From an uncultured Aquimarina sp. (GTDB taxonomy: Bacteria > Bacteroidota > Bacteroidia > Flavobacteriales > Flavobacteriaceae): a DNA stretch of 64,000 bases. Location: the NCBI RefSeq assembly GCF_947492405.1, contig NZ_CANLMP010000008.1, positions 161,435-225,434 of the forward strand. Reading direction: 5' to 3'. Below the pieces are notes generated by a model. The model did no database searches. It saw only the letters and a program-made list of their open reading frames with translations, and was not told the origin of the DNA. Both the position numbers and the translations under genes were made by a program. Numbering within the stretch: the stretch's first letter is position 1; every line of letters begins with the position of its first letter. This document shows, in pieces, positions 19,957 to 46,203 of the stretch.

Positions 19957-20533
19957 TAGCTTGCTTAATCATATCTAACCCTTTTTCTGTATATGATAGT
20001 TTTAATGCTGCTTGATGACCTTTTTCAGACATTTTTCTCCAGGTTTTTTGTAAAATATCAATAACCTTTTCTGAACTGTGTTTTTCGTAGAATTCTGAGT
20101 AGTAAAATTCTAGAAAAACAAGGCAGATAACATCTTCTAATATTTGAGTATCCTCGTCTTTTTTTAACTTTTTCTTTTGTATGAGAAAAGATACTCTATC
20201 TATAGTTTCTTTATCGTACCCTACTTCCTGAAGTATTCCTGAAGCCTTTTCTGCATGAAACTTTTTTAACTCTTCTCTCCATTTTAAATAACCCACTCGA
20301 TCCATCGGATAATTGTTACGAGGAATTTCCCATCTGCATAAATGCTGGGCTCTTGCAGCTAGCTGCAACGCTTCTGATGCTTCAGAAGTATAATTATTAA
20401 GAGATTGACTCATTCGTTGACCGTAGATCAATTCTTTAGGAATAGATTCTCCTTTAACGATTTCTTTATTTGGGTCTTTTGCATTTGCTTTGTCAAAAAA
20501 AGAAAATGCAGCGGCTAATTTTGTGGTTGGCAT
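19949..20533 (-). CDS. DUF4202-type protein
   Basis: 194 aa, FSFFDKANAKDPNKEIV...ARAQHLCRWEIPRNNYPMDRVGYLKWREEL; overlaps the kinase start by 8 nt, so translationally coupled. Confidence 0.75.
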   Translation of the reverse strand: MPTTKLAAAFSFFDKANAKDPNKEIVKGESIPKELIYGQRMSQSLNNYTSEASEALQLAARAQHLCRWEIPRNNYPMDRVGYLKWREELKKFHAEKASGILQEVGYDKETIDRVSFLIQKKKLKKDEDTQILEDVICLVFLEFYYSEFYEKHSSEKVIDILQKTWRKMSEKGHQAALKLSYTEKGLDMIKQAIA

Positions 20534-23532: not shown

Positions 23533-23555
23533 CAAAATTAAGTATTAATACGTAT
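23533..23555 (-). promoter_or_regulatory. Palindromic operator overlapping -7 box (nirB copy)
   Basis: Minus strand ATACGTATTAATACTTAATTTTG; core AMGTA-N4-TACTT then TAATTTTG (TAnnTTTG). Confidence 0.65.
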
Positions 23556-23669: not shown

Positions 23670-25004
23670 TTATTGCAGAGGTTTAGGACTCCACTTAAGG
23701 AAATTAGGTTTAATCACTAATTGAACCCATCCCCAGTTTTGTAATCCACTTGGATTAGGTTGATTTTTTAGAAACTCCATTCCCTCTCCAGCAAACATTT
23801 GTGAATATCCAACTTTTACGGATGCATAGGGTAGTAATTTTTGTGTAAATACAATATCTACTTCCGTTCCAAGGTATTTGTCTGCCTCTGATCCATCCGT
23901 ATCATCTATAAGAGTAGCTGCTGATGAGAAATAATGTCCTTTGATAAGAAGACTTGAGGATTTTCCAAATTTAAAATTTGCTTTGGCATATATATCAGTT
24001 AAACCCACAGAGTTTGCATGGTTTCCAACATAAAAGTAATCCATATATCCATTAAACTTATGATTGGTACCATAAAGAGGAAAGAAAGAATAGTTTTTTC
24101 CATCCGTTTCGTTTTGATCTGTACCACTTTGGATTTCAAAACCACCTCCAATACCAACAGTACCAATTTTCCCATTGGCTTCTAGTCCAACTAAATATGC
24201 AGAAAGATCAGTAGATGGACTTGCAGGATCAGTGGTATCAGGGCCTTCTCCTGCTTGTAAATATGCATTTAAAGCAAGACCTACTCCTCCTAGTTTAAAT
24301 TTAGAATGTGTACCAAATGTATGGGTATGATAGAATCCATCTGTAGGAGTACCATTTATTACATTCTGAAATGTGTTATTTAATGCTAAAAAACTGAGCG
24401 TCGCTTTTTCTGAAGCTTTCCAGGTTAAGTGTGCATACTCCATGGCTTTATAGCTAAAAAAACCAGTAACATTATATATTGTTCCTGTTTGATTACCTGG
24501 AAGTGCATCTAGATCATTCTGACTAAATGCAAAACCAAGATCTAATTTGATCTTTTCGTTTCCATATCTTATTAAAGCTAAGTCATGAAAACGACCTTGT
24601 AATGCCCAATCTAAACCACCTAAGATTCTCTGATCATCGTATGATATCATTTGTCGACCTACTTTAGTGGACCAACCTTTTCCGAATGCCAAGGATGCCC
24701 AGGCTTCTGCAACTTGTAAATTATTATTAGCATCATTATCCAGAATCTGTCTGGTATCTCCCCATACTCTTACATCCTGAATACTAAAATGAGCTTTGAA
24801 TTTTTCGGAAGTGTACCCAAATTTTAGCCTGGCTCTCTGTTGCACAAAAGCAGCAGGATCCGCTCCTTGAGGAACCAGATTATTGAATCCATGACGATAT
24901 TCAAATCGATCTCTAAAATCTAAATCAATACTTAATTCCTGAGCTTTCCCCTTAGATACTAATACTAGTAAAAATAGTATAGTATAATGTAACTTGTTTT
25001 TCAT
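23670..25004 (-). CDS. Outer membrane beta-barrel porin-like protein (alginate-export-like)
   Basis: Signal peptide MKNKLHYTILFLLVLVSKGKAQ; barrel-type sequence (DLDFRDRFEYRHGF, QQRARLKFGY, WGDTRQILDND, GRQMISYDDQRILGGLDWALQGR). Confidence 0.7.
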   Translation of the reverse strand: MKNKLHYTILFLLVLVSKGKAQELSIDLDFRDRFEYRHGFNNLVPQGADPAAFVQQRARLKFGYTSEKFKAHFSIQDVRVWGDTRQILDNDANNNLQVAEAWASLAFGKGWSTKVGRQMISYDDQRILGGLDWALQGRFHDLALIRYGNEKIKLDLGFAFSQNDLDALPGNQTGTIYNVTGFFSYKAMEYAHLTWKASEKATLSFLALNNTFQNVINGTPTDGFYHTHTFGTHSKFKLGGVGLALNAYLQAGEGPDTTDPASPSTDLSAYLVGLEANGKIGTVGIGGGFEIQSGTDQNETDGKNYSFFPLYGTNHKFNGYMDYFYVGNHANSVGLTDIYAKANFKFGKSSSLLIKGHYFSSAATLIDDTDGSEADKYLGTEVDIVFTQKLLPYASVKVGYSQMFAGEGMEFLKNQPNPSGLQNWGWVQLVIKPNFLKWSPKPLQ

Positions 25005-25099: not shown

Positions 25100-25122
25100 C
25101 AAATCTAAGTATTAATACTTAT
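25100..25122 (-). promoter_or_regulatory. Palindromic operator overlapping -7 box (porin copy)
   Basis: TAAGTATTAATACTTA is a perfect 16-bp palindrome (25106-25121), followed on the minus strand by TAGATTTG (TAnnTTTG). Confidence 0.7.
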
Positions 25123-25262: not shown

Positions 25263-25946
25263 ATGGTTAGTATTGTATTGGTAGATGATCATTTTTTGGT
25301 AAGAGATGGTATCCGTTCGCTTTTGGAAGATGAAAATCAATATGAGGTGATTGGGGAAGCATCCGATGGGCGAGAAGCCATAGATTTAGTTCAGTCTTTA
25401 CAACCGGATATTGTAATATGTGATATAAGAATGCCTGAAATGTCAGGTATTGAGACAGTAGAACAACTTACAGCTTTGTCGGTATCATCTAAAACTATTA
25501 TGTTGTCGATGCACGATTCTGATGAATATATCTTACAATCTATAAATGCTGGAGCTGATGGATACTTATTGAAGGATGCAGGAAAAGAAGAATTTCTTAA
25601 AGCATTGTCGACTGTAAGTAAAGGAAATAAGTACTTTAGTGGAGATGTATCTTCAATATTGGTTAAGAATTTACTTAAGGGCGTAGAGAACGAGAATGAA
25701 GAAGAAGTAGTTCAGTTAACCAAAGAGAGCATAAACGTAAATAATAATCCGTTCGATCTTACAAAAAGAGAAAATCAAATACTCAAGTTGGCTGTTTCAG
25801 GTATGACTAATAAAGATATTGCAGTAGAACTGGATATAAGTAAAAGAACTACAGAAGTACATCGTTTTAATTTGATGAAAAAAATGGGTGTCAAAAATGT
25901 ACTGGAACTAAGTAATAAGGCCAGAAAATACAATATGATTTCCTGA
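25263..25946 (+). CDS. NarL/LuxR-family response regulator
   Basis: Receiver (VSIVLVDDHFLVRDGIRSLLED...DIVICDIRMPEMSG) plus LuxR HTH (LTKRENQILKLAVSGMTNKDIAVELDISKRTTEVHRFNLMKKMG). Confidence 0.93.
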   Translation: MVSIVLVDDHFLVRDGIRSLLEDENQYEVIGEASDGREAIDLVQSLQPDIVICDIRMPEMSGIETVEQLTALSVSSKTIMLSMHDSDEYILQSINAGADGYLLKDAGKEEFLKALSTVSKGNKYFSGDVSSILVKNLLKGVENENEEEVVQLTKESINVNNNPFDLTKRENQILKLAVSGMTNKDIAVELDISKRTTEVHRFNLMKKMGVKNVLELSNKARKYNMIS

Positions 25947-27162: not shown

Positions 27163-27185
27163 GTAAGTGTTTATACTTAGTTTTG
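27163..27185 (+). promoter_or_regulatory. Palindromic operator overlapping -7 box (narK copy)
   Basis: GTAAGTGTTTATACTTAGTTTTG: core AAGTG-TTTA-TACTT (one mismatch), then TAGTTTTG. Confidence 0.6.
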
Positions 27186-27234: not shown

Positions 27235-28635
27235 ATGGATGTCTTAGGAAGGTCTACAACACTAAAACTTTTAAACTTAAAGAGTCTGCCAATTCGGACT
27301 TTCTGGATAACTTCAATAGCTTTTTTCTTATGCTTTTTTGCTTGGTTTGGTATTGTTCCTTTTATGCCTGATGTAATTAGAGATTTAGGTTTAACACCGG
27401 ATCAAAAATGGAATTCTATTATTGTAGCAGTTACTGGAACGGTTTTCGCTAGGCTTTTGATAGGTAAATTATGTGATAAGTATGGACCTCGTATGTGTTA
27501 TACTTGGTTATTGATGTTAGGAGCTATTCCTGTAATCTTGTTAGGTTTGGTTCAGACTCCTATGCAGTTTATTATATGTAGACTTTTTATTGGGTTTATA
27601 GGTGCGTCATTTGTAATAACACAATTTCATACATCTATTATGTTTGCTTCGAATATAGTAGGTACGGCTAATGCAACTTCTGCTGGATGGGGTAATCTTG
27701 GTGGTGGAGCAAATAGATTAGGTATGCCTCTTATAGCTGCTGCTGTTGTGAGTTTTGGTGTGGCGGAGACCGAAGCGTGGCGATATTGCATGGTGGTTGC
27801 TGGTATTGTTTGTTTTTTAATGGGGATTGTGTATTACTTTTTTACACAGGATACTCCAAACGGAAATTATAAAGAATTAAAAGCGAAAGGAGCTTTGCCT
27901 CAATCAAAAAAAGATGAAATTAGTTTTTTGTCCGCGATTAAAGATTATAGAGTTTGGATTCTTTTTGTAGTGTATGCTGCTTGTTTTGGTATGGAGTTAA
28001 CTGTTTATGGTACTATGGATGATTATCTTCAGAATACATTTGGATTAGAGAGGGCTACAGCAGGTAATTTAGTTCTTTCCTTTGCTTTAATGAATATTTT
28101 TGCAAGAACATTAGGAGGTTTTTTTGGAGATAAATTTGGAAAACTAAAAGGATTACGCGGACGTGTATTATTTTTAGCCGTTATTCTTGCGGTAGAAGGA
28201 CTTATGCTTTCTTTGTTTTCTGGAATGAGTGGATTGGCATTTGGTATTGTCTTTTTAGTAGGTTTTAGTTTAACCGTTCAGATGGCAGAAGGAGCTACGT
28301 TTTCCGTTGTTCCCTTTATTAATAAAAAAGCAATAGGGTCTATTTCTGGAATTGTAGGAGCTGGAGGAAATGTAGGGGCTTTTGTTGCTGCGATGGTATT
28401 AAAATCTAAATCTGCTGTAGCTGAGAAACTAGCTATTTCGAAAAACCAAAATCTAGGGCAAGAAGCGATGGATGCAGCTCAGGCAATTGCTTCTTCAGAA
28501 GCTGTGTCTGAAGGATATTTTTTAATAGGAGGTTTTGTGGTTCTAACGGCAATTGTTTCTTTAACAATAAAATTTTCTACGGAAGATGAAAAAGCTATAG
28601 CGCATGAGATAAAAGGTGTTGCTGTGTCAAGCTAA
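27235..28635 (+). CDS. narK: NarK-type nitrate/nitrite MFS transporter
   Basis: FCLFFAWFGIVPFMPDV-type start, GWGNLGGGANRL and GSISGIVGAGGNVGA (nitrate signature) motifs. Confidence 0.9.
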   Translation: MDVLGRSTTLKLLNLKSLPIRTFWITSIAFFLCFFAWFGIVPFMPDVIRDLGLTPDQKWNSIIVAVTGTVFARLLIGKLCDKYGPRMCYTWLLMLGAIPVILLGLVQTPMQFIICRLFIGFIGASFVITQFHTSIMFASNIVGTANATSAGWGNLGGGANRLGMPLIAAAVVSFGVAETEAWRYCMVVAGIVCFLMGIVYYFFTQDTPNGNYKELKAKGALPQSKKDEISFLSAIKDYRVWILFVVYAACFGMELTVYGTMDDYLQNTFGLERATAGNLVLSFALMNIFARTLGGFFGDKFGKLKGLRGRVLFLAVILAVEGLMLSLFSGMSGLAFGIVFLVGFSLTVQMAEGATFSVVPFINKKAIGSISGIVGAGGNVGAFVAAMVLKSKSAVAEKLAISKNQNLGQEAMDAAQAIASSEAVSEGYFLIGGFVVLTAIVSLTIKFSTEDEKAIAHEIKGVAVSS

Positions 28636-29028: not shown

Positions 29029-29051
29029 TTAAGTATTTATACTTACTTTTG
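29029..29051 (+). promoter_or_regulatory. Palindromic operator overlapping -7 box (nrt operon copy)
   Basis: TTAAGTATTTATACTTACTTTTG: AAGTA-TTTA-TACTT then TACTTTTG. Confidence 0.7.
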
Positions 29052-29088: not shown

Positions 29089-30495
29089 ATGATAAAACTT
29101 AATTTTAAAATTATAGCAGTACTCACGGTTTTTACATTGCTGTCCTGCGCAGGAGAAAAGAAAAAAGAAATAGCATCAAGCGATGCGAGTTTAAAAGAAG
29201 AAGCATCCAAGTTAGCAATAGAGAAGCCACAATTAACTTTTGGTTTTATAAAACTAACAGATATGGCTCCTTTGGCAATAGCTAAAGAAAAAGGTTTTTT
29301 TGAAGACGAAGGACTATTTGTTTCTGTAGAGGCACAGTCAAACTGGAAGAATGTGTTAGATCGTGTTATTGATGGGCAGTTAGATGGCTCTCATATGTTA
29401 GCAGGTCAGCCTATTGCTGCTGGAGCAGGTTTTGGTAGACAAGCCGAATTAGTTACTCCTTTTTCTATGGATTTAAATGGAAATGGTATCACAGTGTCTA
29501 ATGATGTTTGGTCTAAAATGAAACCCAATGTACCGAAAAGTGAAGACGGAAAACCAATTCATCCTATTTCTGCCGAAGCATTGAAGCCAGTAATAGAATC
29601 ATATAAGAATGATGGAAAGGCTTTTAAGATGGGAATGGTGTTTCCGGTATCAACACATAACTATGAAATAAGATACTGGTTAGCTGCAGCAGGGATTAAT
29701 CCTGGTATGTATTCTAAAGATAATATTCAAGGGCAAATTGATGCAGATGTGTTACTTTCTGTAACTCCACCACCACAAATGCCAGCAACACTTGAGGCAG
29801 GTACTATATATGGATACTGTGTTGGAGAACCATGGAATCAGCAAGCTGTTTTTAAAGGAATTGGTGTTCCTGTAGTTACGAACTATGATATCTGGAAAAA
29901 CAATCCAGAGAAAGTATTTGTGATGACCAAGAAATTTGTGGAGCAGTATCCTAATACGGCAACCGCTGTAACGAAAGCGTTGATTAGAGCAGGTAAATGG
30001 TTGGATACGCCAGGTAACCGTCCGGAAGCTGTAAAAATATTATCAATGCCAGAATATGTTGGAGCAGATGAGGTAGTATTAGCGAATTCTATGACTGGTA
30101 CTTTTGAGTTCGAAAAAGGGGATAAAAGAGAAATGCCAGATTTCAATGTTTTCTATAGACATGATGCTACATATCCTTTCTACTCTGATGGTATATGGTT
30201 TCTGACTCAAATGAGACGATGGGGACAGATTCCAGATAGTAAGCCTGCAGCATGGTATGATAAAACGATTAAAGATATTTATCGTCCTGATATCTGGACA
30301 AAAGCAGCTAAACTCTTGGTTGATGAAGGTCATCTTGAGGCTTCAGAGTTGCCTGAAACAGATGGATATAAGCCAGCAACTACTGATTTTATTGATGGTA
30401 ATAAGTATGATGCTAAAGATCCAATAGGGTACATCAATAGTTTTGGTATTGGAAATAAAGAAAATACGGAAGGTGTTTCAAGCATTGAGAAATAA
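29089..30495 (+). CDS. nrtA: NrtA/CmpA-type nitrate ABC transporter substrate-binding lipoprotein
   Basis: Lipobox [34 protein letters not shown]; followed by permease and two ATPases. Confidence 0.88.
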
Positions 30496-33816: not shown

Positions 33817-34146
33817 ATGAATATAGAAGAGTTGATAATGGTGTCAATTACGGAATTTTTAGATGTTGAGGTGCATAGGGATACAGGAAACCTTGATTTC
33901 TCTTCCAAAATAGAAATCGTAAAAAAACGTATTACTAATAAAGTCAAAAATAGCCCGGATGCTTATGGCATGGTGAGTGGTTTTGAAGGATATGAATATG
34001 AAATGTTTTTTAGTAGTAACCCTAATGATATGATCAAAATTGATGGATGGATTCCTATTGATACTAGTAGGATTGAAAAAGCAGATAAAATAGACGAATA
34101 TATAGAAATTGGATTGCTTAGAAGAATAGGCAGTTCCTTAAGCTAA
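33817..34146 (+). CDS. Small uncharacterised protein, paralog A
   Basis: 109 aa, strongly similar to the next ORF (SKIEIVKKRITNKVKNSP; YEYEMFFSSNPNDMIKIDGWIPIDT). Confidence 0.8.
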   Translation: MNIEELIMVSITEFLDVEVHRDTGNLDFSSKIEIVKKRITNKVKNSPDAYGMVSGFEGYEYEMFFSSNPNDMIKIDGWIPIDTSRIEKADKIDEYIEIGLLRRIGSSLS

Positions 34147-34237: not shown

Positions 34238-34564
34238 ATGAAAGTAAATGAATTAATCACTGAAGCTATTACAGAGTTCTTAGAAGTAGAAGTAAGCAGA
34301 GATACTGGTAACCTGAATTTTGCTTCTAAAATAGAAATCGTAAAAAAACGTATCACTAATAAAGTTAAAAATAGTCCAGAATCATATGGGGTAAATAATA
34401 ACTCCGATGCATATGAGTATGAAATGTTTTTTAGTAGTAATCCTAATGATATGATTAAAATTGATGGATGGATACCTATTGATACAGGAAAAATTAAAAA
34501 AGCCGATAAGATAGAAGAGTATATAGAAATAGGTTTATTGAGGAAAATTGAAAAAGCTGCCTAA
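34238..34564 (+). CDS. Small uncharacterised protein, paralog B
   Basis: 108 aa tandem paralog of 33817..34146. Confidence 0.8.
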   Translation: MKVNELITEAITEFLEVEVSRDTGNLNFASKIEIVKKRITNKVKNSPESYGVNNNSDAYEYEMFFSSNPNDMIKIDGWIPIDTGKIKKADKIEEYIEIGLLRKIEKAA

Positions 34565-34853: not shown

Positions 34854-34888
34854 GCCGGTTATGAGAAGTTGTAACCGGCTTTTTTTTT
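34854..34888 (+). terminator. Plus-strand terminator overlapping the ccsA stop codon
   Basis: GCCGGTTA...TAACCGGC followed by nine T. Confidence 0.65.
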
Positions 34889-36682
34889 ACTATTTTTTTT
34901 TATTAAAGGTATTATCGAGATAATACAAGCTATTGGTATGATAATATATATCCAATAGGGAATAGGAAAAGGATCTCCCTTTGCATAAGAATGTAATCCA
35001 GATAAGTAATAGTTTACTCCAAAAAAAGTCATAATAAGACTTCCTAAAGCAAATAAGCTACATACATTGTACATGTATATGTAGTTTTTAGGGATTATAA
35101 TTCTTATATGAAGTACAAAGGAATAGATAATAATGCTTATCAGAGCCCAGGTCTCTTTGGGATCCCAACCCCAATATCTTCCCCATGACTCATTTGCCCA
35201 AATACCTCCCAAAAAGGTGCCGATAGTTAGCATGTATAAACCAATCGTACTAGTAATTTGATTAATATTCGTGAGTTTTTTTATGGTATTTTCTGTTTCC
35301 ATATGATCAGAAAAGGTGTTAATACACATTAGTAACAGAGAAATTAATGAAAGAAGAGATCCTAGTGCTAAAAAACCATAACTACCGGTTATGATCGCCA
35401 CGTGAATTAATAGCCAATATGATTTTAACACAGGAACTAAATTAGTAATCTCAGGATTCATTAAACTTCCGTGTGCAATCCCAATTAAGCAGATAGCTAA
35501 TATGGATGCAGTGGCCGGAGCAAACGAGCTTTTTTTGTGAAAAATAAATCCAGCTAGCATTCCTACCCAGGAAATGAATATACTAGCTTCATAACCATTG
35601 CTCCAAGGAGCATGTCCCGAAATGTACCAGCGCAATATAATTCCAAAGCCTTGCAAAATGAATAAAACAAAAACTAAAAAAAGTATGTAGCCAATGATTT
35701 TTTTTAATAAATTATTGTAGGGTTTAAATGTTATTACAAAACTAAGGAGTACTAATAACATTCCCAGAAAAGAATATCCAATAAGACACCATAAAAATAT
35801 TGGATTGTTGTTAAACCATATCTCTAAACTTACTTTTGTGTCCGATAATATAATCGTTGTTCCGTTATTTTCCTGAAACCTTTTGATTAAATCAATAGTT
35901 TCATCTGCTTTTTGCCAATCTCTATTTTTAATACCAATGGTAAGATTTGTAAAGTAGGTAGGCGTAATTTTTGAATAAAAAAGTTGATCGTCTTCATTGA
36001 ATGTTGCTTCTTTCTCCATCGGAGCATACCATTTCAAGGATGGATCATCTTTTTTAGGAAAAATCTTAAGAAATTGTCCATTAAAGATCCCCCATATAAT
36101 ATTAACTCGTTCGTCGATTTTAATGATGTTTTTATCAAAAACGGAACGTTTTCCAGGGGCTTTTTCATAAGCTCTATTAACGAGAGGCTCCAGTTTGTAG
36201 TTGCCTTGAAAGTCAAAAAACTGTGAAGCGCTTGTGTAACCTAAAGTATTGATGTCAATTAATTCTTTTAGTCCATTAATTGCTTTTTTTTCAATCTTAA
36301 TAAATGCTATTAGTTGCCATGAATCAGGCTTATACTGCATTCCTAAGAATATTTGGGTCGGAGTAAGTTGTTGTTTTTTGTTTTCTTTATCAAAATAACT
36401 GAAGCTGCTTTTGCCATGGATTTTCCTGACCAATTCTAATGATAATGTACTAATTGGTTTTATTCTTCCTTGGAAATCTTGAACCTGAACAGTGGCAAAC
36501 TTTTCTGCGTGGTTAATGTCAATGAGTTGTCTGTTGATTAATTCGTATGGTTCTAAGTGATGTAATTGTTGTGCTTGTATTTGGCTAACAAAAAGGATTA
36601 GAAAGCTTAAAACTTTAAATGGGATGTTTTTTTTCAATTTAATAGTTTTAGTGTTAATCCAAAATGAGAACTTTTCCAACAT
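34859..36682 (-). CDS. ccsA: Cytochrome c biogenesis protein CcsA-type
   Basis: Multi-TM with the WGWDPKETWALISIIIYS tryptophan-rich motif; downstream of ResB. Confidence 0.88.
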   Translation of the reverse strand: MLEKFSFWINTKTIKLKKNIPFKVLSFLILFVSQIQAQQLHHLEPYELINRQLIDINHAEKFATVQVQDFQGRIKPISTLSLELVRKIHGKSSFSYFDKENKKQQLTPTQIFLGMQYKPDSWQLIAFIKIEKKAINGLKELIDINTLGYTSASQFFDFQGNYKLEPLVNRAYEKAPGKRSVFDKNIIKIDERVNIIWGIFNGQFLKIFPKKDDPSLKWYAPMEKEATFNEDDQLFYSKITPTYFTNLTIGIKNRDWQKADETIDLIKRFQENNGTTIILSDTKVSLEIWFNNNPIFLWCLIGYSFLGMLLVLLSFVITFKPYNNLLKKIIGYILFLVFVLFILQGFGIILRWYISGHAPWSNGYEASIFISWVGMLAGFIFHKKSSFAPATASILAICLIGIAHGSLMNPEITNLVPVLKSYWLLIHVAIITGSYGFLALGSLLSLISLLLMCINTFSDHMETENTIKKLTNINQITSTIGLYMLTIGTFLGGIWANESWGRYWGWDPKETWALISIIIYSFVLHIRIIIPKNYIYMYNVCSLFALGSLIMTFFGVNYYLSGLHSYAKGDPFPIPYWIYIIIPIACIISIIPLIKKNSKKKAGYNFS

Positions 36683-38019
36683 AGACTCAGTAACATTCCC
36701 AGAGCTAATAGTGCATAACCAAAATAAGTAGTAAATGTTCCCCAGTAATCGTGATTTACGGAAAGAATAGTGCCGCTTTCATCAGGAAGATAGGCAGATT
36801 GAAAAAAACGATATCCACTATGGTTCAGAACATTATTCATGAAAATAGTATAGTCAAAAATCCTGTGTTTTTCTTGAATTTCTACATTACTGTAAAAAGC
36901 TGATGGACTATTAGATCCAGGGTATCGCTCTAGTATAAAGTCTTTTAGAAAAATAGAGAAAGGTAGTTTAATTGGTTTGGAACCATATCGAAGGTTTATA
37001 TGAATACCGTTTATAAATAAAGTTCTATAAGGATTCATGTATCCCGGACCTCCAAATAATGTGATTTCTTTTGTTTCCTTACCAGACTCCAAGGATATTG
37101 TAATAGCAGCTTCTGGGTTTTTAATTTCCGGATCTTTTTCCTTTGAAATGATTTCTAAATATTTGTTTTCTGATATTTGATTAAAAACTATAGGTGTGTT
37201 GTTGATTTCACTAAGTGCTTTAAATTGTAATGGAACAAGACTGTCTTTAGGGTAAAAACTAGCCTTATTTAGTATCATAGAAAAGTAATTCGTGCTTTTT
37301 GGAAATGATGCTGACCAAGTGTCATTCTTTTTAGTAATAAAAATGTCTTTTTTGGATTTATGTTGGCTTTCAAAAGCGATTGGGATTCCATAAATTGTTT
37401 CTCGTGTTCCTTTTTTGATGTAAAAATCTTTTCTCTCATCACTGTCTGCAATTACAATGTGTATATAAGTCGCTCCTTGGGTAGTATCTTTCAGGTTATA
37501 ATGTGCTCTCGGAATATATTTCTTTAGATTTACTTTAATATTCTTATTTTCAAAATCGTAATCTTCATGAATATTATTGAAGCCAAGTTCGCTCATAAAA
37601 ATAGGGTCGCTGGAAAAGTTCTTATTAATTGAACCATTACCCATCTCTAATTGCAAGTAGCTATCTATAGAGATCATCCTGTTACTGGCAGTATCTTCTT
37701 TTATGGTCATTAATGCTTCATAACCTCTATATCTGGTGATTCCAGAACCTAGAATTATGATAATGAATGCTAAGTGAAATAAAAAAACAGGAGCTTTTTG
37801 CCAACTAAAAAGATTATATTTAGTGATATTACCTATAAAGTTAAAAGTAAGAAGGAGTATCAATATTTCAAACCATTTAGCATTGTAGACTAGTGCTTTG
37901 GCGGTTTCGGTTCCATAATCATTCTCTATAAAAGTTGCAGCAGCCATTGCGATTGCAAATACAATTAATAGTATTCCGCTTGTGCGATTAGAAAAAAGTA
38001 TGTTCAATACGTGTTTCAA
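36634..38019 (-). CDS. ResB/Ccs1-type cytochrome c biogenesis protein
   Basis: Four-TM layout with a large periplasmic loop (FLFHLAFIIIILGSGITRYRGYEALMTIKE; YWGTFTTYFGYALLALGMLLSL). Confidence 0.8.
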   Translation of the reverse strand: MKHVLNILFSNRTSGILLIVFAIAMAAATFIENDYGTETAKALVYNAKWFEILILLLTFNFIGNITKYNLFSWQKAPVFLFHLAFIIIILGSGITRYRGYEALMTIKEDTASNRMISIDSYLQLEMGNGSINKNFSSDPIFMSELGFNNIHEDYDFENKNIKVNLKKYIPRAHYNLKDTTQGATYIHIVIADSDERKDFYIKKGTRETIYGIPIAFESQHKSKKDIFITKKNDTWSASFPKSTNYFSMILNKASFYPKDSLVPLQFKALSEINNTPIVFNQISENKYLEIISKEKDPEIKNPEAAITISLESGKETKEITLFGGPGYMNPYRTLFINGIHINLRYGSKPIKLPFSIFLKDFILERYPGSNSPSAFYSNVEIQEKHRIFDYTIFMNNVLNHSGYRFFQSAYLPDESGTILSVNHDYWGTFTTYFGYALLALGMLLSLCWKSSHFGLTLKLLN

Positions 38020-38080
38020 TAGTGTTTCTTTTTTTGATATCTTCCTGGTTTTAACCTCTTCGTTTTCTATATCAAGAATA

Positions 38081-38449
38081 TTATTCTTGCATTCCTAGTT
38101 TAACCCATTTTTTGATCATTTCTATCGCACAACTATCGATTTTAACTCCTTTTCGATAAGGCATAGGAATGAACCCCTGAGCGTGGGTGATAGAACCTAT
38201 TAATTGTCCGCTTTCCCCAGATTTTTTTAAGCTTGAGTAGTCAAAAATTTTATTTCTAGAAGCCTTTTCTTTGTAAACATCTTGAGCGTGACATTTAAAG
38301 CAATGAACTTCTATTAGTGATGCTATCTGATCATTGTAAGTTACATTCTGCGGGATATCACATATTTGTTTTGGTTCTCCATTGCAGGATGTGAAATTGA
38401 TGAATAATGTTAGCAAGAGTGTTAGCTTTATTATTGTAGTAGAGTTCAT
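38081..38449 (-). CDS. Monohaem c-type cytochrome lipoprotein
   Basis: Lipobox INFTSCNG; one CFKCH haem motif. Confidence 0.8.
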   Translation of the reverse strand: MNSTTIIKLTLLLTLFINFTSCNGEPKQICDIPQNVTYNDQIASLIEVHCFKCHAQDVYKEKASRNKIFDYSSLKKSGESGQLIGSITHAQGFIPMPYRKGVKIDSCAIEMIKKWVKLGMQE

Positions 38450-38484
38450 GATAGGTTTATTTTGGGTTCAAATGTCTTAGAGTG

Positions 38485-39204
38485 TTATTTAACGGAGTAT
38501 TTCTTTTTCATTTTTAACCATTCTTCTTCACTTAATGGTTGGTGTTTCTTTTTGTTAGAAAAAGGATCTGGACCTCCTTTTAGGTATTCTTGAATTTTTT
38601 CTAACGGAACGGTATCTTTCATTTTTTCTGCTACTTTATAAATGTGATTTCCATGAAAATCGTGACATTGTAGACAGGTGTTCCATTGTTTGTTGGCAAT
38701 CAATTCTTCATGAGGTGTATCAATAGGATCATTTTTCACTTCTAAATCATAGTGACAATTCACACAGAATGCAGCATCTTTAAGAACTATTCTGGTATCA
38801 TTGTGTTCTCTATGGCAAGTTTCGCATTCTGTAGCGTTTATACTAGCAATTGCTTCTTTAAATCTAGGTTCTAGAAAACGATGAGTAGGGTGGCGGTCAT
38901 TGGGTCTATCGTGACATTCCAGACATTTTTTGTTATCTACATTTTCAGTCCCAAAATCGGCTTTGGTTTTACGCATTCCAAATGTATAAGCTATATTAGA
39001 TTGTAGTTGTTGTATTAAATTTCCTTTTGCATCAGTATGACATGCATTACAAGACAATCCTTCATGCCCTGTATTAAGAGGTCCTAGACTCAAAAAGTTT
39101 TCTGTTTTTTTTAGAGGTAAAACGATATATATAATGATGCCGATAGTGATTCCAATTATAGAGCCAATCCGTTGTCTTTTTCGTAATGGATTTTTGCTAA
39201 ACAT
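38485..39204 (-). CDS. Membrane-anchored pentahaem cytochrome c
   Basis: One N-terminal TM and five CXXCH motifs: CNACH, CLECH, CETCH, CVNCH, CLQCH. Confidence 0.85.
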   Translation of the reverse strand: MFSKNPLRKRQRIGSIIGITIGIIIYIVLPLKKTENFLSLGPLNTGHEGLSCNACHTDAKGNLIQQLQSNIAYTFGMRKTKADFGTENVDNKKCLECHDRPNDRHPTHRFLEPRFKEAIASINATECETCHREHNDTRIVLKDAAFCVNCHYDLEVKNDPIDTPHEELIANKQWNTCLQCHDFHGNHIYKVAEKMKDTVPLEKIQEYLKGGPDPFSNKKKHQPLSEEEWLKMKKKYSVK

Positions 39205-39210
39205 ATAGTT

Positions 39211-40251
39211 TTAATCGTTTAAGAAGCTAATACTAACGTTACTAGAAGCTGGAAAGCTTATGCAGGTTAAGATATCTCCATTAGCAACTTCTTCTTCTGT
39301 TAAAAAATGACCATCTATCATCTTTACTTTTCCTTTTACACATTTTGCTTTACAACTGCTGCACATGCCTGATCTACAAGAGTATGGTAGCATTATGTTT
39401 TCGGACATTGCTCCTTGTAGAATTGTTTTGTCTCCCGGAACGCTTATCTGGTGCTTCTTTTTTTCCTGGTAGATAACTACATTGCTTATTAAGTCTTTAG
39501 CATCACTGGATGTTATAAAATTGGCACTAAAGGCTTCTAGTTTAATTTGATTTCTGGCAATACCATTATTGGCTAATATTTCTTTTGCTTTATCCATAAA
39601 ACCTTGTGGACCGCACATCATGTATTTCCCATCAGCATATTTTAACATATGTGTTTCCATGATTTCGGTAATTAGCTCCTCATTTAGTAAATCTTGATGG
39701 TAGTTTAGTTTGTTAGAGTTGTTTTTTTCTAGCACATGTTGAGTGCTTAAGCGTTCTTGGTATTTTTCTTCAAGATCTTCTAATGCCTTTTTAAATATGA
39801 TGGATTCCTCATTTTTATTAGCATAAATTAATACGATTTTGGATAGAGGTTCTTTTTCTAAAACTGTTTTAATAATAGAGAATATAGGTGTTATACCGCT
39901 TCCTCCTGCAAAAAAAACATAGTTGTGTTTTGCTTTTTTATTAGGTTCTATATAAAAACTACCTGAAGGTTTTTCAATTTCTATTTTTTGTCCCGCTGTT
40001 AATTTTTCACAGATATAATTAGATACTAGCCCTTTTTGTACTTTCTTGACTGTTATTCTTAGAAATTTGTCAGTGAATGGACTACTACTAAAAGAATAAG
40101 CTCTTTTTTCAATTTTATTTTTAATTGGGATTTTTACAGTAAGAAATTGCCCTGGTTTGTATTTGATTTTCTTAAATAATCCACCTTTATTAAGAATAAC
40201 ACTAACAGCATCTTCAGTTTCGTGAATTATCTCTTTGACAGTTAACAGCAT
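39211..40251 (-). CDS. FAD/NAD(P)-binding ferredoxin reductase with C-terminal plant-type [2Fe-2S]
   Basis: RAYSFSSSP (FAD), GGSGITPIFSIIK (NAD), C-terminal CRSGMCSSCKAKCVKG (2Fe-2S). The ATG at 40251 is preferred over the track start at 40365, which overlaps the upstream gene. Confidence 0.88.
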   Translation of the reverse strand: MLLTVKEIIHETEDAVSVILNKGGLFKKIKYKPGQFLTVKIPIKNKIEKRAYSFSSSPFTDKFLRITVKKVQKGLVSNYICEKLTAGQKIEIEKPSGSFYIEPNKKAKHNYVFFAGGSGITPIFSIIKTVLEKEPLSKIVLIYANKNEESIIFKKALEDLEEKYQERLSTQHVLEKNNSNKLNYHQDLLNEELITEIMETHMLKYADGKYMMCGPQGFMDKAKEILANNGIARNQIKLEAFSANFITSSDAKDLISNVVIYQEKKKHQISVPGDKTILQGAMSENIMLPYSCRSGMCSSCKAKCVKGKVKMIDGHFLTEEEVANGDILTCISFPASSNVSISFLND

Positions 40252-40265
40252 AATATTTTGTTTTT

Positions 40266-40763
40266 TTATTTGTAATAAAACACAACGCCAATATGAAAAA
40301 CTACTAAAAATGTAATTACTACAGAGAGCAGTACATGGATGATCATCCATGATTTGAAGATCCATTCTTTTTGACTTTTGATAATGTCAAGATTGACTGT
40401 GCCTAAAATCATGTTAATGAAAAATATATAGGATAAGAGCGCTAAGTATCCATATCCAAACTCCAATGCATGTATGTAGAAAAATATTGGCGAAACAACT
40501 CCAATCCACTTGTGTAAGCTTGTAAAACGGATGGTGTGTTTTCTTAATTTTTTGGACACTCTGGTCAGGGTAAGTATCCATTGAAACAATATGAATGCTC
40601 CAACAAATACTCCGGACCATCGTTTATATTCTTCATTGAGTTGAAGATCGTATAGCCATCGCCACTTTAGATCTAAAAGATATTGTAGGATATAGAATAC
40701 AAATAGACTAAATCCGATAAACAAAAAGCTATATGATTTTTTCACTCTATCCGAAATATTCAT
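40266..40763 (-). CDS. Small diheme b-type membrane protein (ferric reductase/NOX-like 4-TM core)
   Basis: 165 aa; two H-X13-H pairs: LHKWIGVVSPIFFYIH and IHVLLSVVITFLVVFH. Confidence 0.7.
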   Translation of the reverse strand: MNISDRVKKSYSFLFIGFSLFVFYILQYLLDLKWRWLYDLQLNEEYKRWSGVFVGAFILFQWILTLTRVSKKLRKHTIRFTSLHKWIGVVSPIFFYIHALEFGYGYLALLSYIFFINMILGTVNLDIIKSQKEWIFKSWMIIHVLLSVVITFLVVFHIGVVFYYK

Positions 40764-40765
40764 TT

Positions 40766-41635
40766 TTAATTAGAAGCTAAGTCTTTTATTTTATTGGTTT
40801 TCTTGTTGTTGTCAGCAAGCAATAATTTTTCAAGACTATGATATGAAGCTAATTTTCTTACACTATCAATAAATACTTCTGCTGTTGGCAGATAGAAACC
40901 TTTAGAAGGCCATTTATTGCCAATTTGCGGTTTTGTACTATCATTTTTAAAAGCTGCTATTTCTTCGAGATAGGCATTGTAGATTGCTTTTGTACCATTT
41001 CTGTACGCATTTATAACTCCTATAGCTTCTTTATACGACAAGGAATCAGAAGGATATTGCCAGGTAGTTGCTCCCATAACATCACCTAGTTTCCAATCAG
41101 TTTTTGTAGTGCTTTTATGATCGTTGTGGCAATTAACACAAGGAGCTGCTACAGCGAGATCTGCAAACATGGAGGTGTATAATTTCTGATCTTCTTCATA
41201 GAAATGCTGAGGTTTTTGATCAATCTTTATTTTGGTAAATAGCTCTGCTTGCTTTCCTTGAAATTTATTGGAAGCATTAATAGGGAAATCAGAGCCTAGG
41301 TATAGTCCTAGTGGCACATCGCTTTTTCTGATATCAGAAGAAATCCCTCTTAAGAATAACGCAGGAAGCGGGCCAGCTTCTACTTCGTCATCTTGCCAGT
41401 CTTCATCGAATTTTAATCCTTGTTTTTTTCCAGCTCCTACAATTCCTTTAGTATATAATGTTCTTGTGATATCGTTTTCTTCTGCAACCAAGGTAAGTAC
41501 GTCTGCTACCGCTAGTACTTTGTCTGATGATTCATTTGATGCGGTTTCTTCTGGTATGCCGCCACAAGATTGAAGAATAACAGAATATCCTGTTACTAGT
41601 AAGAAAAATATCCCCTTTGCTTTTAAATGATTCAT
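40766..41635 (-). CDS. DUF3365 (Tll0287-like) haem lipoprotein
   Basis: Lipobox VILQSCGG; CVNCHNDHKSTTKTDWKLGDVMGA haem motif. Confidence 0.8.
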   Translation of the reverse strand: MNHLKAKGIFFLLVTGYSVILQSCGGIPEETASNESSDKVLAVADVLTLVAEENDITRTLYTKGIVGAGKKQGLKFDEDWQDDEVEAGPLPALFLRGISSDIRKSDVPLGLYLGSDFPINASNKFQGKQAELFTKIKIDQKPQHFYEEDQKLYTSMFADLAVAAPCVNCHNDHKSTTKTDWKLGDVMGATTWQYPSDSLSYKEAIGVINAYRNGTKAIYNAYLEEIAAFKNDSTKPQIGNKWPSKGFYLPTAEVFIDSVRKLASYHSLEKLLLADNNKKTNKIKDLASN

Positions 41636-41671
41636 ATTGTTATGTTTTAGGTTAATTACTTTACTAATATT

Positions 41672-42100
41672 TTATGCTACCTCTCCATACGCGGCAGTTT
41701 TCATAACTGATGCCATAATACTATAGGTGTCAGCCCAAGCGGTTTCTACTTCTGGTGTAAAATCTTCTCCAAGTCCAGTTTCCAAGGTGCTTAGTAATGC
41801 AGCGCCCACTGTGTCATAATGAGAAGATTCTACTTTGTAATCCACATGCCTTTTTCCTAAATCTTGTAATATAGGTATGAGTCTATCTATATTACTTAGT
41901 CCTGCTACTGCAGAAGAAAGCATAGTCATTAATTTGTTTCCTTGTCCTTTCATAGCTTCGGCATCGTCGGCTGGAAATATCTTTTTTAATTCAGGATCCA
42001 ATTCGAAAAGCTTATTATAAAAAATTCCTGCAGCTGTCTCTGCAATAGGTGCTACTTTACTAAAGGACGTTTGTACCAATTCAATTGTGCGTTTTTCCAT
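41672..42100 (-). CDS. Single-domain globin (flavohaemoglobin globin-domain type)
   Basis: 142 aa, globin fold sequence FYNKLFELDPELKKIFP...LGKRHVDYKVESSHYDTVGAALLSTLE; no fused reductase. Confidence 0.88.
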   Translation of the reverse strand: MEKRTIELVQTSFSKVAPIAETAAGIFYNKLFELDPELKKIFPADDAEAMKGQGNKLMTMLSSAVAGLSNIDRLIPILQDLGKRHVDYKVESSHYDTVGAALLSTLETGLGEDFTPEVETAWADTYSIMASVMKTAAYGEVA

Positions 42101-42127: not shown

Positions 42128-42150
42128 AAAAATTAAGTATTTATACTTAA
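42128..42150 (-). promoter_or_regulatory. Palindromic operator near -7 box (globin operon copy)
   Basis: AATTAAGTA-TTTA-TACTTAATT (42131-42152), 9-nt arms; on the minus strand followed by TAATTTTT, one mismatch to TAnnTTTG. Confidence 0.7.
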
Positions 42151-42630
42151 TTATGTTTCAAATATATTTTAATATTTGACAAAACACAAATATTGAATAT
42201 TCAATAAAAATGAATTTATACGTTATTTTTTTCTTTAAAAAACATGTATTGTTATTATAATTTAATTATTTAACTTTTTTATTAATAATAGTGTAATTTA
42301 GAATTTATGATATTGCATAACTTCTAAAAATACGTATTTGAACTTAATAAGTACGTTTTATGATAATCGTTTTATTCTGTTCTTTTTTTGCAAAAATGAT
42401 AATTACTGCTATCTAAAATACTTTTTAGAATATATAATATTAAGCTTTGGTATATAATAAGGAGAACCTGTTTTTTATATATAGTACAGTGCTTTTAGTC
42501 GGTTTTAATTTTAAATATAAGGGAATCAATACGTCTCTTTTTTCCGAAAAATGTTTTTTTGATATGTTCTTTTATGGATTTCATAATTCACAATGCTATT
42601 TGAAGTCTTCTCTTATAATTTGATTTGTTT

Positions 42631-42653
42631 TTAAGTAATAATACTTAATTTTG
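42631..42653 (+). promoter_or_regulatory. Palindromic operator between -33 TTTG and -7 TAATTTTG (nasA copy)
   Basis: TTAAGTAATAATACTTAATTTTG; a TTTG at 42624-42627 lies 18 nt upstream of TAATTTTG. Confidence 0.72.
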
Positions 42654-42684: not shown

Positions 42685-45600
42685 ATGGCATTTAAATCTT
42701 ATAAGACTACTTGTTCGTATTGTGGTGTTGGTTGTGGAATAATAGCTAAAAAAGATCCTAAGGGAGTAATTACCGTAGAGGGAGATCCTGATCATCCTGT
42801 AAACAAAGGGATGTTATGTTCTAAAGGAATGAATTTACATCACGTTGTTCAGGATAAAAGTGATAGGATTTTGTATCCAGAGATGCGATGGAGTAAAGGA
42901 CATGAGCGTCAGCGAGTATCTTGGGATCAGGCTTTTGATCGTGCAACAGCGGTTTTTAATACTATTATTGATAAATATGGACCTGATAGCGTTGGGTTTT
43001 ATGTTTCAGGACAATGTCTTACAGAAGAGTATTACTTGGTAAACAAACTGACCAAAGGATTTATTGGGACTAATAATATAGATACGAATTCTAGATTATG
43101 CATGAGTTCCGCCGTTGTCGGGTATAAACAGGCGTTAGGTGAAGATAGTGTTCCGATTGCGTATGATGATATAGAGTTAGCGGATTGTTTTATGATTGCT
43201 GGAGCCAATCCTGCTTGGTGTCACCCGATTTTATTCAGAAGAATTGAAGCACATAAAGAACAAAATCCAGATACCAAAATTATTGTAGTTGATCCAAGAA
43301 AAACGCAATCCTGTGATATTGCGGATTTACATTTACAAATTATACCAGGTACAGATGTAGTATTGTATAATGCTATTGCTAAACGATTAATTGATCGAAG
43401 AAAAATTGATAAAAATTTTATAGCAAACCATACAGATAATTACGAATCGTTAAAAGAGTCTTTGCAATCTACCTCATTAACAGAGGCAGCAAAAATATGT
43501 GGAATTACTCTTGCTGATATAAAAAAAGCTGCTTCTTATATAAGCAATGCTAAAGGTTTTATAACACTTTGGGCGATGGGACTAAATCAGAGTTCTATAG
43601 GAGTCAATAAAAATAATGCACTTTTAAATTTATCCTTACTTACTGGGCATATCGGAAAACCAGGATCTGGTCCTTTTTCATTAACAGGACAACCTAACGC
43701 AATGGGAGGTAGAGAGGTAGGAGGAATGGCGAACCTATTGGCTGCACATAAAGATTTAAGTAATAAAGAACATAGAACAGAAGTTGCGAATTTTTGGGGA
43801 GGAAAAGAGATTTCTGAGAAACCAGGATTAACAGCTACAGAGATGTTTGATGCTCTGGAAAGTGGAAAACTAAAAGCAGTATGGGTTATATGTACAAATC
43901 CTTTAGTAAGTCTTCCTAATGCTAATAAGGTCGAAAAAGCTTTACAAAATGCTAAGTTTGTTGTTGTCCAGGATATCTCACATCGTTCAGAAACATTAGA
44001 GTATGCGGATTTAGTTTTGCCAGCTGCTGGTTGGGCAGAAAAAGAAGGAACAATGACTAATAGTGAGCGACGGATTACTTATTTGAATAAGGTGGTTGAT
44101 CCTCCTGGAGAAGCATTACCAGATTCAGAAATCCTTTGGAGGTTTGCACAACGAATGGGATACCGTGGGTTTGATTATACATCTGTAGAAGAGGTGTATA
44201 AAGAGCATTGTCGTTTGACTAAAAGCACAAATATTGATATTACTGGTTTAAATTACGATCGACTAAAAAATGAAGGTAGTTTTCAGTGGCCAGTGCCAGA
44301 AAGTAATCATTCAGGAACTGCACGTTTGTTTGAGGATAAGCGTTTTTATACAGATACAGGTAATGCAAAGTTTATAGTACCAAGATTTACCAAACCAACT
44401 TCAGAATTATTAACAGAGAAACATCCATTGATTTTAACAACTGGTAGAGTACGTGATCAATGGCATACCAGAACTAAAACAGGAAAAGTAAATAGATTAT
44501 TAACACACATCCCACATCCTTTTCTGGAAATGAACCAAGTAGACGCTTTTCTCAGAAAGATGAAAGATGGTGATATTGCTGTTGTAGAGAGTAAACGAGG
44601 AAAAGTACAGGTTAAGGTAAAGGTTAGTGATACTATTGGCAAGGGAGTGGTGTTCTTACCTATGCATTGGGGTAAAGTACTGGGAAATGATTATGGAAGA
44701 GCTAATAATCTAACAACTAGTATTGTTGATCCTATTTCTAAAGAACCTGATTTTAAGTTCTCTGCGGTGCAAGTTTCAAAATTTATAAAAGAAAAGCAGA
44801 AGATTTGTATTATTGGTGCTGGTACTGCAGCATATCGCTTTATACAAACGTATAGAGAGCATAATATGGAAGATGAGATCACCGTATTTTCCAAAGAGCC
44901 ATATCCTTTTTATAATCGTGTTTTACTACCAGAATATGTAAGCGAAGAACTTACCTGGGAGCAATTACAAAAAATGCGAGAAGGTAGTATGGAATCTCTT
45001 AATGTTACTTTATCTACAAGCAATCCAATTGCTGAGATCAACAGAGAGGAAAAGTATCTTGTAGATAGCAAAGGAGAAAAGCATCAGTATGATGTGGTCT
45101 TAATGGCTACAGGTAGTCGGGCTTTTGTCCCAAAAGAAGTACCTATCCATTTGCCAGGAAGATTTACTATGAGAGATCGCGGTGATGCAGATAAACTAAA
45201 GACATATCTTGATGATACCGGTTTGCCCGAAAACAAACAACATGTAACCATTGTAGGAGGTGGATTATTAGGTTTAGAACTGGCGGCAGCACTACGTAAA
45301 AAAGAAGTGAAAATTACTATCATACAACGAGGAAATCGATTGATGGAACGCCAGCTGGATATTGTAGCTAGTCGTTTGTTGGCAGAAGATGTGCGTGAAA
45401 AAGGGATACAAATTCATTTTGATAATGAGGTTGATACAGTATTTAATCAGGATTCTGGATCCTTATTAGTAAACCTGAAATCAGGAAAATCATTTACTTG
45501 CAATGCTGTAGTTTATTCTATTGGTACTATTCCTAATATTGATTTAGCGAAGGCTGTAGGTGTCACCTGTCGTCGCGGAATTGTAGTAAATCAATATTTA

Positions 45601-46203
45601 CAATCTAGTGATCCAGATATTTTTGCAGTAGGAGAAATCGCCGAATTCGAAGGAAATTTATTCGGAATTACAGCTGCAGCAGAGCAACAGGCTGATGTAG
45701 TAGCAAAATACCTTTTAGGAGATTTTAGCGCAATTTATAAAGGGTCTGTATTTATGAATATTCTGAAATTTGAAGATTTGGATCTTTGTAGTATTGGTAA
45801 TATTGATATGCCAAAAGATGATCCTACCTATGAAGAAGTTATTTTTATGGATGTAGGTAAGCGATTTTATAAGCGATGTATTATTAAAAACGATTGGCTG
45901 GTAGGAGCAATTTTGATGGGTGATAAGAGTGAGTTTGCAGACTTTAAAAGACTGATCGAAGAGAAAATAGAATTATCAGAAAAAAGAGAAGAATTGCTTA
46001 GATCATCACAACCTGATGAACCTGTACTTGGTAAATTGATTTGTTCTTGTAGTCAGGTAGGCGAAGGTAATCTAGAAGAAGCTATAAAATCTGGTTGTGA
46101 AGATTTCTCAGAACTTTGCATTAAAACAGGAGCAGGATTGGGTTGTGGAAGTTGTAAACCAGAAGTAAAAGAAGTGTTGAATAATGTAATGCAATTAGCT
46201 TAG
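42685..46203 (+). CDS. Assimilatory nitrate reductase: NasA molybdopterin subunit fused to NasB-like FAD/NAD domain and BFD-like [2Fe-2S]
   Basis: N-terminal CSYCGVGCG...CSKG (4Fe-4S), NasA motifs (GFYVSGQCLTEEYY, LTGQPNAMGGREVGG), then KICIIGAGTAAYRFIQTYRE (FAD), ICSCSQVGEGNLEEAI...GAGLGCGSCKPEV (BFD). Confidence 0.93.
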   Translation: MAFKSYKTTCSYCGVGCGIIAKKDPKGVITVEGDPDHPVNKGMLCSKGMNLHHVVQDKSDRILYPEMRWSKGHERQRVSWDQAFDRATAVFNTIIDKYGPDSVGFYVSGQCLTEEYYLVNKLTKGFIGTNNIDTNSRLCMSSAVVGYKQALGEDSVPIAYDDIELADCFMIAGANPAWCHPILFRRIEAHKEQNPDTKIIVVDPRKTQSCDIADLHLQIIPGTDVVLYNAIAKRLIDRRKIDKNFIANHTDNYESLKESLQSTSLTEAAKICGITLADIKKAASYISNAKGFITLWAMGLNQSSIGVNKNNALLNLSLLTGHIGKPGSGPFSLTGQPNAMGGREVGGMANLLAAHKDLSNKEHRTEVANFWGGKEISEKPGLTATEMFDALESGKLKAVWVICTNPLVSLPNANKVEKALQNAKFVVVQDISHRSETLEYADLVLPAAGWAEKEGTMTNSERRITYLNKVVDPPGEALPDSEILWRFAQRMGYRGFDYTSVEEVYKEHCRLTKSTNIDITGLNYDRLKNEGSFQWPVPESNHSGTARLFEDKRFYTDTGNAKFIVPRFTKPTSELLTEKHPLILTTGRVRDQWHTRTKTGKVNRLLTHIPHPFLEMNQVDAFLRKMKDGDIAVVESKRGKVQVKVKVSDTIGKGVVFLPMHWGKVLGNDYGRANNLTTSIVDPISKEPDFKFSAVQVSKFIKEKQKICIIGAGTAAYRFIQTYREHNMEDEITVFSKEPYPFYNRVLLPEYVSEELTWEQLQKMREGSMESLNVTLSTSNPIAEINREEKYLVDSKGEKHQYDVVLMATGSRAFVPKEVPIHLPGRFTMRDRGDADKLKTYLDDTGLPENKQHVTIVGGGLLGLELAAALRKKEVKITIIQRGNRLMERQLDIVASRLLAEDVREKGIQIHFDNEVDTVFNQDSGSLLVNLKSGKSFTCNAVVYSIGTIPNIDLAKAVGVTCRRGIVVNQYLQSSDPDIFAVGEIAEFEGNLFGITAAAEQQADVVAKYLLGDFSAIYKGSVFMNILKFEDLDLCSIGNIDMPKDDPTYEEVIFMDVGKRFYKRCIIKNDWLVGAILMGDKSEFADFKRLIEEKIELSEKREELLRSSQPDEPVLGKLICSCSQVGEGNLEEAIKSGCEDFSELCIKTGAGLGCGSCKPEVKEVLNNVMQLA

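Follow-up and report, generated by a model that had tools for sequence, protein, structure and literature searches.

In Bradyrhizobium japonicum, the bjgb-flp genes of the narK-nasC locus provide genetically tested protection against nitric oxide (NO) that arises as nitrate is assimilated, chiefly when O2 is low (PMC4724949). In the DUF3365/Tll0287 (sCache_heme) family of haem proteins, a member without an axial cysteine binds NO and releases it slowly, whereas a member with an axial Cys releases it fast, and DUF3365–cytochrome c fusions have been found in Flavobacteria only (PMC12889525), which is consistent with an electron-transfer partnership. Here, we analysed a 64,000-nucleotide stretch (the window) of contig NZ_CANLMP010000008.1 from an uncultured Aquimarina sp., in which a single-domain globin gene is followed by genes for a DUF3365 lipoprotein, a 165-amino-acid (aa) membrane protein (b165), an FAD/NAD(P)H/[2Fe-2S] reductase (FNR), and a pentahaem cytochrome c. 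Marine flavobacteria such as Aquimarina carry this strictly conserved five-gene set; our literature search, with most subscription journals outside its reach, found no description of it. We give about an even chance to the reading that the last four genes, referred to below as the core, form together with the globin a nitrate-inducible module of two arms that defends against NO and nitrosative stress.

Conservation and cofactor path of the core

A DUF3365 alignment was used to scan 85,462 species genomes, and the best 80 of 120 loci, essentially all from Flavobacteriaceae, were kept. In these 80 loci, to which the locus counts below refer, DUF3365, b165, FNR, and the pentahaem cytochrome followed one another in that order on one strand without exception (80/80). 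The initial annotation had left room for a neighbourhood peculiar to this strain; the gene-neighbourhood search found it conserved far beyond. Its proposal of an eight-gene unit had to be reduced to five, the distal monohaem lipoprotein–ResB–CcsA tail being absent outside Aquimarina. Flammeovirga kamogawensis (Cytophagales, another class) carries hemA–globin–DUF3365–b–FNR–pentahaem on its 640-kb plasmid p1 (L129:10090-15256), and since no nitrate genes lie nearby there, the five-gene set is a self-contained module. A b165 profile run against a 396-genome phylum-wide sample retrieved only our own genome; Flammeovirga shows that rarer carriers exist.

The globin lies directly upstream of DUF3365 in 71 of the 80 loci, and residues Tyr28, Gln53, His85, and Tyr95 are kept in at least 69 of the 71 homologues; by comparison with Hmp, we take these to be positions B10, E7, F8, and G5. 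Its best solved relatives are the HGbI-type globin 3s1i, Vitreoscilla Hb 1vhb, and the Hmp globin domain 1gvh, and the match to the last (3e-18) supports a role in NO defence. All nine loci without an upstream globin are from Aquimarina: six (L041, L043, L044, L046, L049, L050) instead carry a tandem di-globin gene, located past the core and on the other strand, and contig ends truncate two of the remaining three. The tandem di-globin has about 290 aa and two globin domains (e.g., L041:14436-15308, L049:16791-17672), with a conserved C-terminus, KPWWK(F/V)W, and an operator copy just upstream of its gene in several loci.

The path from NAD(P)H through FAD, 2Fe-2S, and two b haems to c haems, which the initial annotation had drawn from cofactor motifs, is backed by conserved residues. 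FNR reaches 1e-22 against the flavohaemoglobin structures 3ozu/1cqx, again in support of NO defence, and NCBIfam scores of 244 bits for PaaE, 175 bits for Hcr, and 136 bits for Hmp, all below the equivalog cut-offs. In b165, all four histidines of the HX13H motifs (H84/H98 and H143/H157) are invariant in 80/80 homologues and kept in Flammeovirga; its AlphaFold model has a pLDDT of 86, neither sequence nor fold searches of the PDB gave a significant match, and an IMG/VR search gave no relatives. The pentahaem cytochrome adds six further invariant histidines (H47, H105, H134, H165, H184, H187) to its five CXXCH motifs, enough for all its haems probably to be bis-His, as in an electron wire. These residues indicate one chain from NAD(P)H in which two b haems are bis-His and the five c haems probably so. 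The DUF3365 lipoprotein has one CXXCH and a lipobox Cys24. In its mature form, cysteines other than the two of CXXCH are absent in 79/80 homologues, so that no axial Cys of the redox (Tll0287/P. putida) type is present in those 79 loci. The top fold match of its AlphaFold model is Tll0287 (5B82; probability 1.00, E 4.5e-3, TM 0.54 by target). The sixth ligand site of this haem appears open, and the globin and DUF3365 haems are the only ones in the five-gene set with a likely open site.

A nitrate-locus operator and the genomic company of the core

The initial annotation had linked the operon to the nrt and nas genes through a common operator, and this link proved both real and specific: among six strict TAAGTA-N4-TACTTA sites in the 6.37-Mb genome, five lie at the nitrate locus (for 25 kb of sequence, the probability of this by chance is about 6e-12). 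Besides the globin gene, the window genes nrtA, nasA, nirB, and narK have the operator in front of them, as do nrtA and a Crp/Fnr gene of relatives. Counted over all 80 loci, it stands before globin (62), nrtA (62), Crp/Fnr (34), narK (18), and nasA (16), where shuffling predicts a total of about 18; the globin matches, with at most two mismatches, cover 62 of the 71 globins. In 50 of these 62 loci, a Bacteroidota -7 promoter box lies 15-18 bp before the operator start, leaving the operator 7-10 bp after the box. Because this distance is nearly fixed, the operator probably lies over the transcription start, a placement that suggests a repressor. NarL-type heptamers read TACYYMT. The half-site TACTTAT/TACTTAA resembles this heptamer, although its orientation and 4-bp spacing are unlike the 7-2-7 form of E. 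coli. An operator of the FNR transcription-factor type (TTGATNNNNATCAA) showed no excess over shuffles before the core. For this strain, the Crp/Fnr protein encoded next to the core in relatives was rejected as the regulator acting on the palindrome, because the genome has no orthologue of it. The sole strict operator outside the nitrate locus (G000:C1:1145648, locus L122) adjoins the gene for a porin-like protein, similar to the Alginate_exp-type porin encoded at the nitrate locus.

In 151 genomes of the family, sampled at one per genus with Fisher p values not corrected for phylogeny, the core occurred in 11, all of which encode NrtA, NasA, and NirB; nine also have NrfA, eight NapA, and ten either, with G111 having neither. 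The 13 NrtA-positive genomes without the core include none with NrfA and one with NapA, and the core is absent from 13 of the 24 nitrate-assimilating genomes. The core marks genomes with an assimilatory set, usually plus a dissimilatory nitrate or nitrite enzyme. In organisms of this type, one would expect NO to form when O2 is low. In our genome, no NorB was found, as the only COX1-family proteins over the cut-off are, by our reading of their sequences, aa3 and cbb3 oxidases. Around the core itself, the 80 loci hold nrtA in 58, a Crp/Fnr gene in 55, nasA in 28, nirB and napA in 12 each, and nrfHA in eight, and examples of the nearby NapA and NrfA pass the NCBI equivalog models. The initial annotation had regarded the terminal acceptor as open on the ground that no nrfA lies in the window, which is true of the window and misleading for the organism, since nrfHA is encoded elsewhere in the genome (G000:C1:~372,400-377,700) with a ResB-CcsA pair of its own.

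This company invites another explanation, in which the core would act as an NAD(P)H dehydrogenase spanning the membrane and supplying periplasmic NapA/NrfA, bypassing quinol and serving redox balancing, with the globin as an accessory NO scavenger. NrfA is present in 9/11 core-positive against 15/140 other genomes, many relatives have nap or nrf genes as direct neighbours of the core, and the pentahaem profile weakly matches NrfH. However, none of 15 strongly NrfA-positive genomes without NrtA and NirB carries the core, G111 has the core with neither putative client, the nrfHA locus of our own genome has no operator copy, and no such genes lie near the Flammeovirga core. We therefore rate this explanation, the main rival, as unlikely. 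General redox balancing, which the initial annotation had named beside an NO/nitrite-linked role, is not favoured, as the core is never found in sampled NrfA-positive genomes without Nas and is missing from the 13 assimilators noted above; the NO/nitrite half of that proposal survives as the leading hypothesis.

Proposed NO defence and its alternatives

As we infer the direction of electron flow, the pairing of globin with FNR, NO as substrate, and induction by nitrate, the defence module would work as follows. In a cytoplasmic arm, FNR would keep the globin reduced, and the globin would remove NO by dioxygenation with O2 or otherwise by slow reduction, the two proteins together resembling a flavohaemoglobin split in two. 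In a membrane/periplasmic arm, the same FNR would pass electrons to b165, which would carry them through the membrane, onto the pentahaem wire and from there to the DUF3365 haem, the likely place of NO (or nitrite) binding and reduction; in Aquimarina, a dedicated ResB-CcsA pair would attach the c haems. NO defence is favoured because the DUF3365 lipoprotein lacks an axial Cys, like the slow-release NO binder, and because Bjgb–Flp offers a genetic precedent. Also counted in its favour are the wire-like pentahaem protein, the operator common to the nitrate genes, the co-occurrence pattern, and the failure to find NorB. A bolder version, which we consider doubtful, is that the core is an NO-removing enzyme of a new kind. 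NAD(P)H would drive this transmembrane NO (or nitrite) reductase, its catalytic site would be the open c haem of the DUF3365/Cache lipoprotein in the periplasm, reached through a split dihaem-b/pentahaem-c wire, and the enzyme would be paired with the cytoplasmic globin.

Several points weigh against NO defence. Stand-alone DUF3365 proteins have been assigned redox rather than NO roles, the stand-alone example tested has an axial Cys, and a Cys-to-Ala variant still released NO fast (PMC12889525). The AlphaFold model of the DUF3365 lipoprotein places no haem, and its invariant Met156 or His173 could be a sixth ligand. FNR is nearer to PaaE/Hcr than to Hmp, and the tandem di-globin gene stands apart from the FNR gene. 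The Flammeovirga module lacks the operator, and nitrate genes are absent from the 12 kb around it; the co-occurrence pattern comes from only 11 core-positive genomes whose kinship is uncorrected.

Two further alternatives seem to us improbable. A ferric/metal or extracellular-electron-transfer reductase of the split NOX/ferric-reductase type, nitrate-regulated by happenstance, would be laid out as transmembrane ferric reductases generally are (FNR, a membrane protein with two HX13H motifs, and multihaem c), and b165 weakly matches Ferric_reduct PF01794 (22.8 bits, below the family cut-off of 28); however, no module-specific iron-uptake or outer-membrane cytochrome/porin partner accompanies the core, its globin partner is consistent, and its operator is of the nitrate type. 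A sensory complex, in which the DUF3365 lipoprotein would sense periplasmic NO or redox state, its own redox state being adjusted by the other proteins, draws on the NO sensors fused to signalling domains in the DUF3365 family (PMC12889525) and on the Crp/Fnr or NarL-type regulators near many loci, but no core protein has a signal-output domain, and Aquimarina, as noted, has no counterpart of the adjacent Crp/Fnr. Least credible is an O2- or reactive-oxygen-linked system in which O2 comes from the globin or superoxide from an NADPH-oxidase-like b protein, since, despite the resemblance of b165 to a NOX haem core with a separate dehydrogenase and the superoxide that DUF3365 proteins form with O2 (PMC12889525), a pentahaem cytochrome follows every copy found, which points to electrons being handed on instead of given off to O2, and nitrate regulation is left unexplained.

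We know of no established job for stand-alone DUF3365 haem proteins. Here, such a protein is tied into an electron-transfer module in 80/80 loci, and a globin and an operator of the nitrate regulon nearly always accompany it, so that its function can be tested directly. The proposed NO-defence module suggests how nitrate-using marine Bacteroidota may cope with NO when their genomes, like this one, yield no NorB.

Locus layout and comparison with known systems

The eight open reading frames lie on the minus strand in the order first reported, with families assigned by Pfam/NCBIfam. The globin–DUF3365, DUF3365–b165, b165–FNR, FNR–pentahaem, pentahaem–monohaem, and monohaem–ResB gaps measure 36, 2, 14, 6, 35, and ~61 bp; the initial description of short gaps throughout thus fits up to ResB, whose frame overlaps that of CcsA by 49 bp. 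The reductase, first given as 384 aa in a frame extending back into the b gene, has its true start at 40251, as set by homologues of ~342 aa beginning at the same methionine.

Features of the nitrate locus in the window
Feature	Position	Strand	Remarks
Globin, single-domain	41672..42100	-	142 aa; PF00042 3.8e-19
DUF3365/Tll0287 (sCache_heme) lipoprotein	40766..41635	-	PF11845 above cut-off
b165, putative dihaem b protein	40266..40763	-	165 aa, about five transmembrane helices; two HX13H motifs
FNR reductase, PaaE/Hcr architecture	39211..40251	-	346 aa; FAD_binding_6 (PF00970), NAD_binding_1 (PF00175), Fer2 (PF00111)
Pentahaem cytochrome c, N-terminally anchored	38485..39204	-	five CXXCH; class III/CXXCH cytochrome domains
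Monohaem c lipoprotein (CFKCH)	38081..38449	-	Aquimarina-only accessory
ResB-like cytochrome c maturation protein	36634..38019	-	PF05140; Aquimarina-only accessory
CcsA-type cytochrome c maturation protein	34859..36682	-	PF01578 Cytochrom_C_asm; CcsB 175.8 bits
Operator TTAAGTATTTATACTTAA before globin	42133..42150	.	exact palindrome, 33 bp ahead of ATG
Operator before nasA (42685-46203)	42631..42648	.	second exact copy
Operator before nrtA	29029..29046	.	
Operator before MFS nitrate/nitrite transporter gene	27163..27180	.	weaker, 1 mismatch in 16-bp core
Operator between porin and NarL-like regulator genes	25105..25122	.	
Operator before nirB	23538..23555	.	
Bacteroidota -7 promoter box (TAnnTTTG) TATATTTG	42159..42166	-	just upstream of globin operator
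nirB	20993-23512	-	
Porin	23670-25004	-	
NarL-like regulator	25263-25946	+	
MFS nitrate/nitrite transporter	27235-28635		
nrtA	29089-30495		

The region also encodes NirD, PilJ/NarX-type sensor proteins, nrtABCD, a 1172-aa nitrate reductase, and Mo-cofactor genes; an Rfam search gave no match. The nasA product is a fusion of NasA with a NirB-like FAD/BFD part, and almost every nitrate-assimilating relative in the sample has one of the same length class. The stretch from nrtD to the operon holds tandem paralogues (33817-34146 and 34238-34564) for ~108-aa proteins without a Pfam family, with homologues in most related Aquimarina loci. A DUF4202 protein gene (19949-20533) adjoins nirBD and a NarX-like kinase and is kept in Maribacter/Cellulophaga loci. 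The monohaem lipoprotein occurs in 21/80 loci, every one Aquimarina, and the operon-type ResB–CcsA pair likewise only there. This genome has three CcsA copies, including one at C1:122434. Borrowing of the operon pair from the nrf operon is not supported, as the CcsA copies fall in separate clades, the operon copies forming their own.

Among dihaem b proteins of the NOX, ferric reductase, and MsrQ types, b165 shares the two His pairs on two transmembrane helices and a gene adjoining a cytoplasmic FNR; it differs in its 165-aa length, its sub-threshold Ferric_reduct score, its lack of a PDB match, and a pentahaem c as next carrier. Hcr of Hcp-Hcr shares the FAD-NAD-2Fe-2S architecture of FNR, but the operon has no Hcp, and FNR falls below the Hcr cut-off. 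With the DUF3365/Tll0287 proteins (PMC12889525), the lipoprotein shares the fold, CXXCH, and the absent axial Cys of the NO-binding type, whereas it is longer, lipid-anchored, free of any signalling-domain fusion, and fixed in an electron-transfer operon. Both halves of flavohaemoglobin Hmp, an NO dioxygenase, have homologues in the operon, although as separate genes in all loci examined, with an extra 2Fe-2S domain on the reductase and a transmembrane haem arm added. The closest tested precedent is narK-bjgb-flp-nasC of Bradyrhizobium, with nrt-type ABC genes, where a single-domain globin and a separate NAD(P)H flavoprotein also lie in a nitrate-assimilation locus, one that is nitrate-inducible and whose mutants are NO-sensitive; it differs in having no reported DUF3365, membrane b protein, or multihaem c, in NasS-NasT regulation, and in the support that Flp also gives to NasC (PMC4724949).

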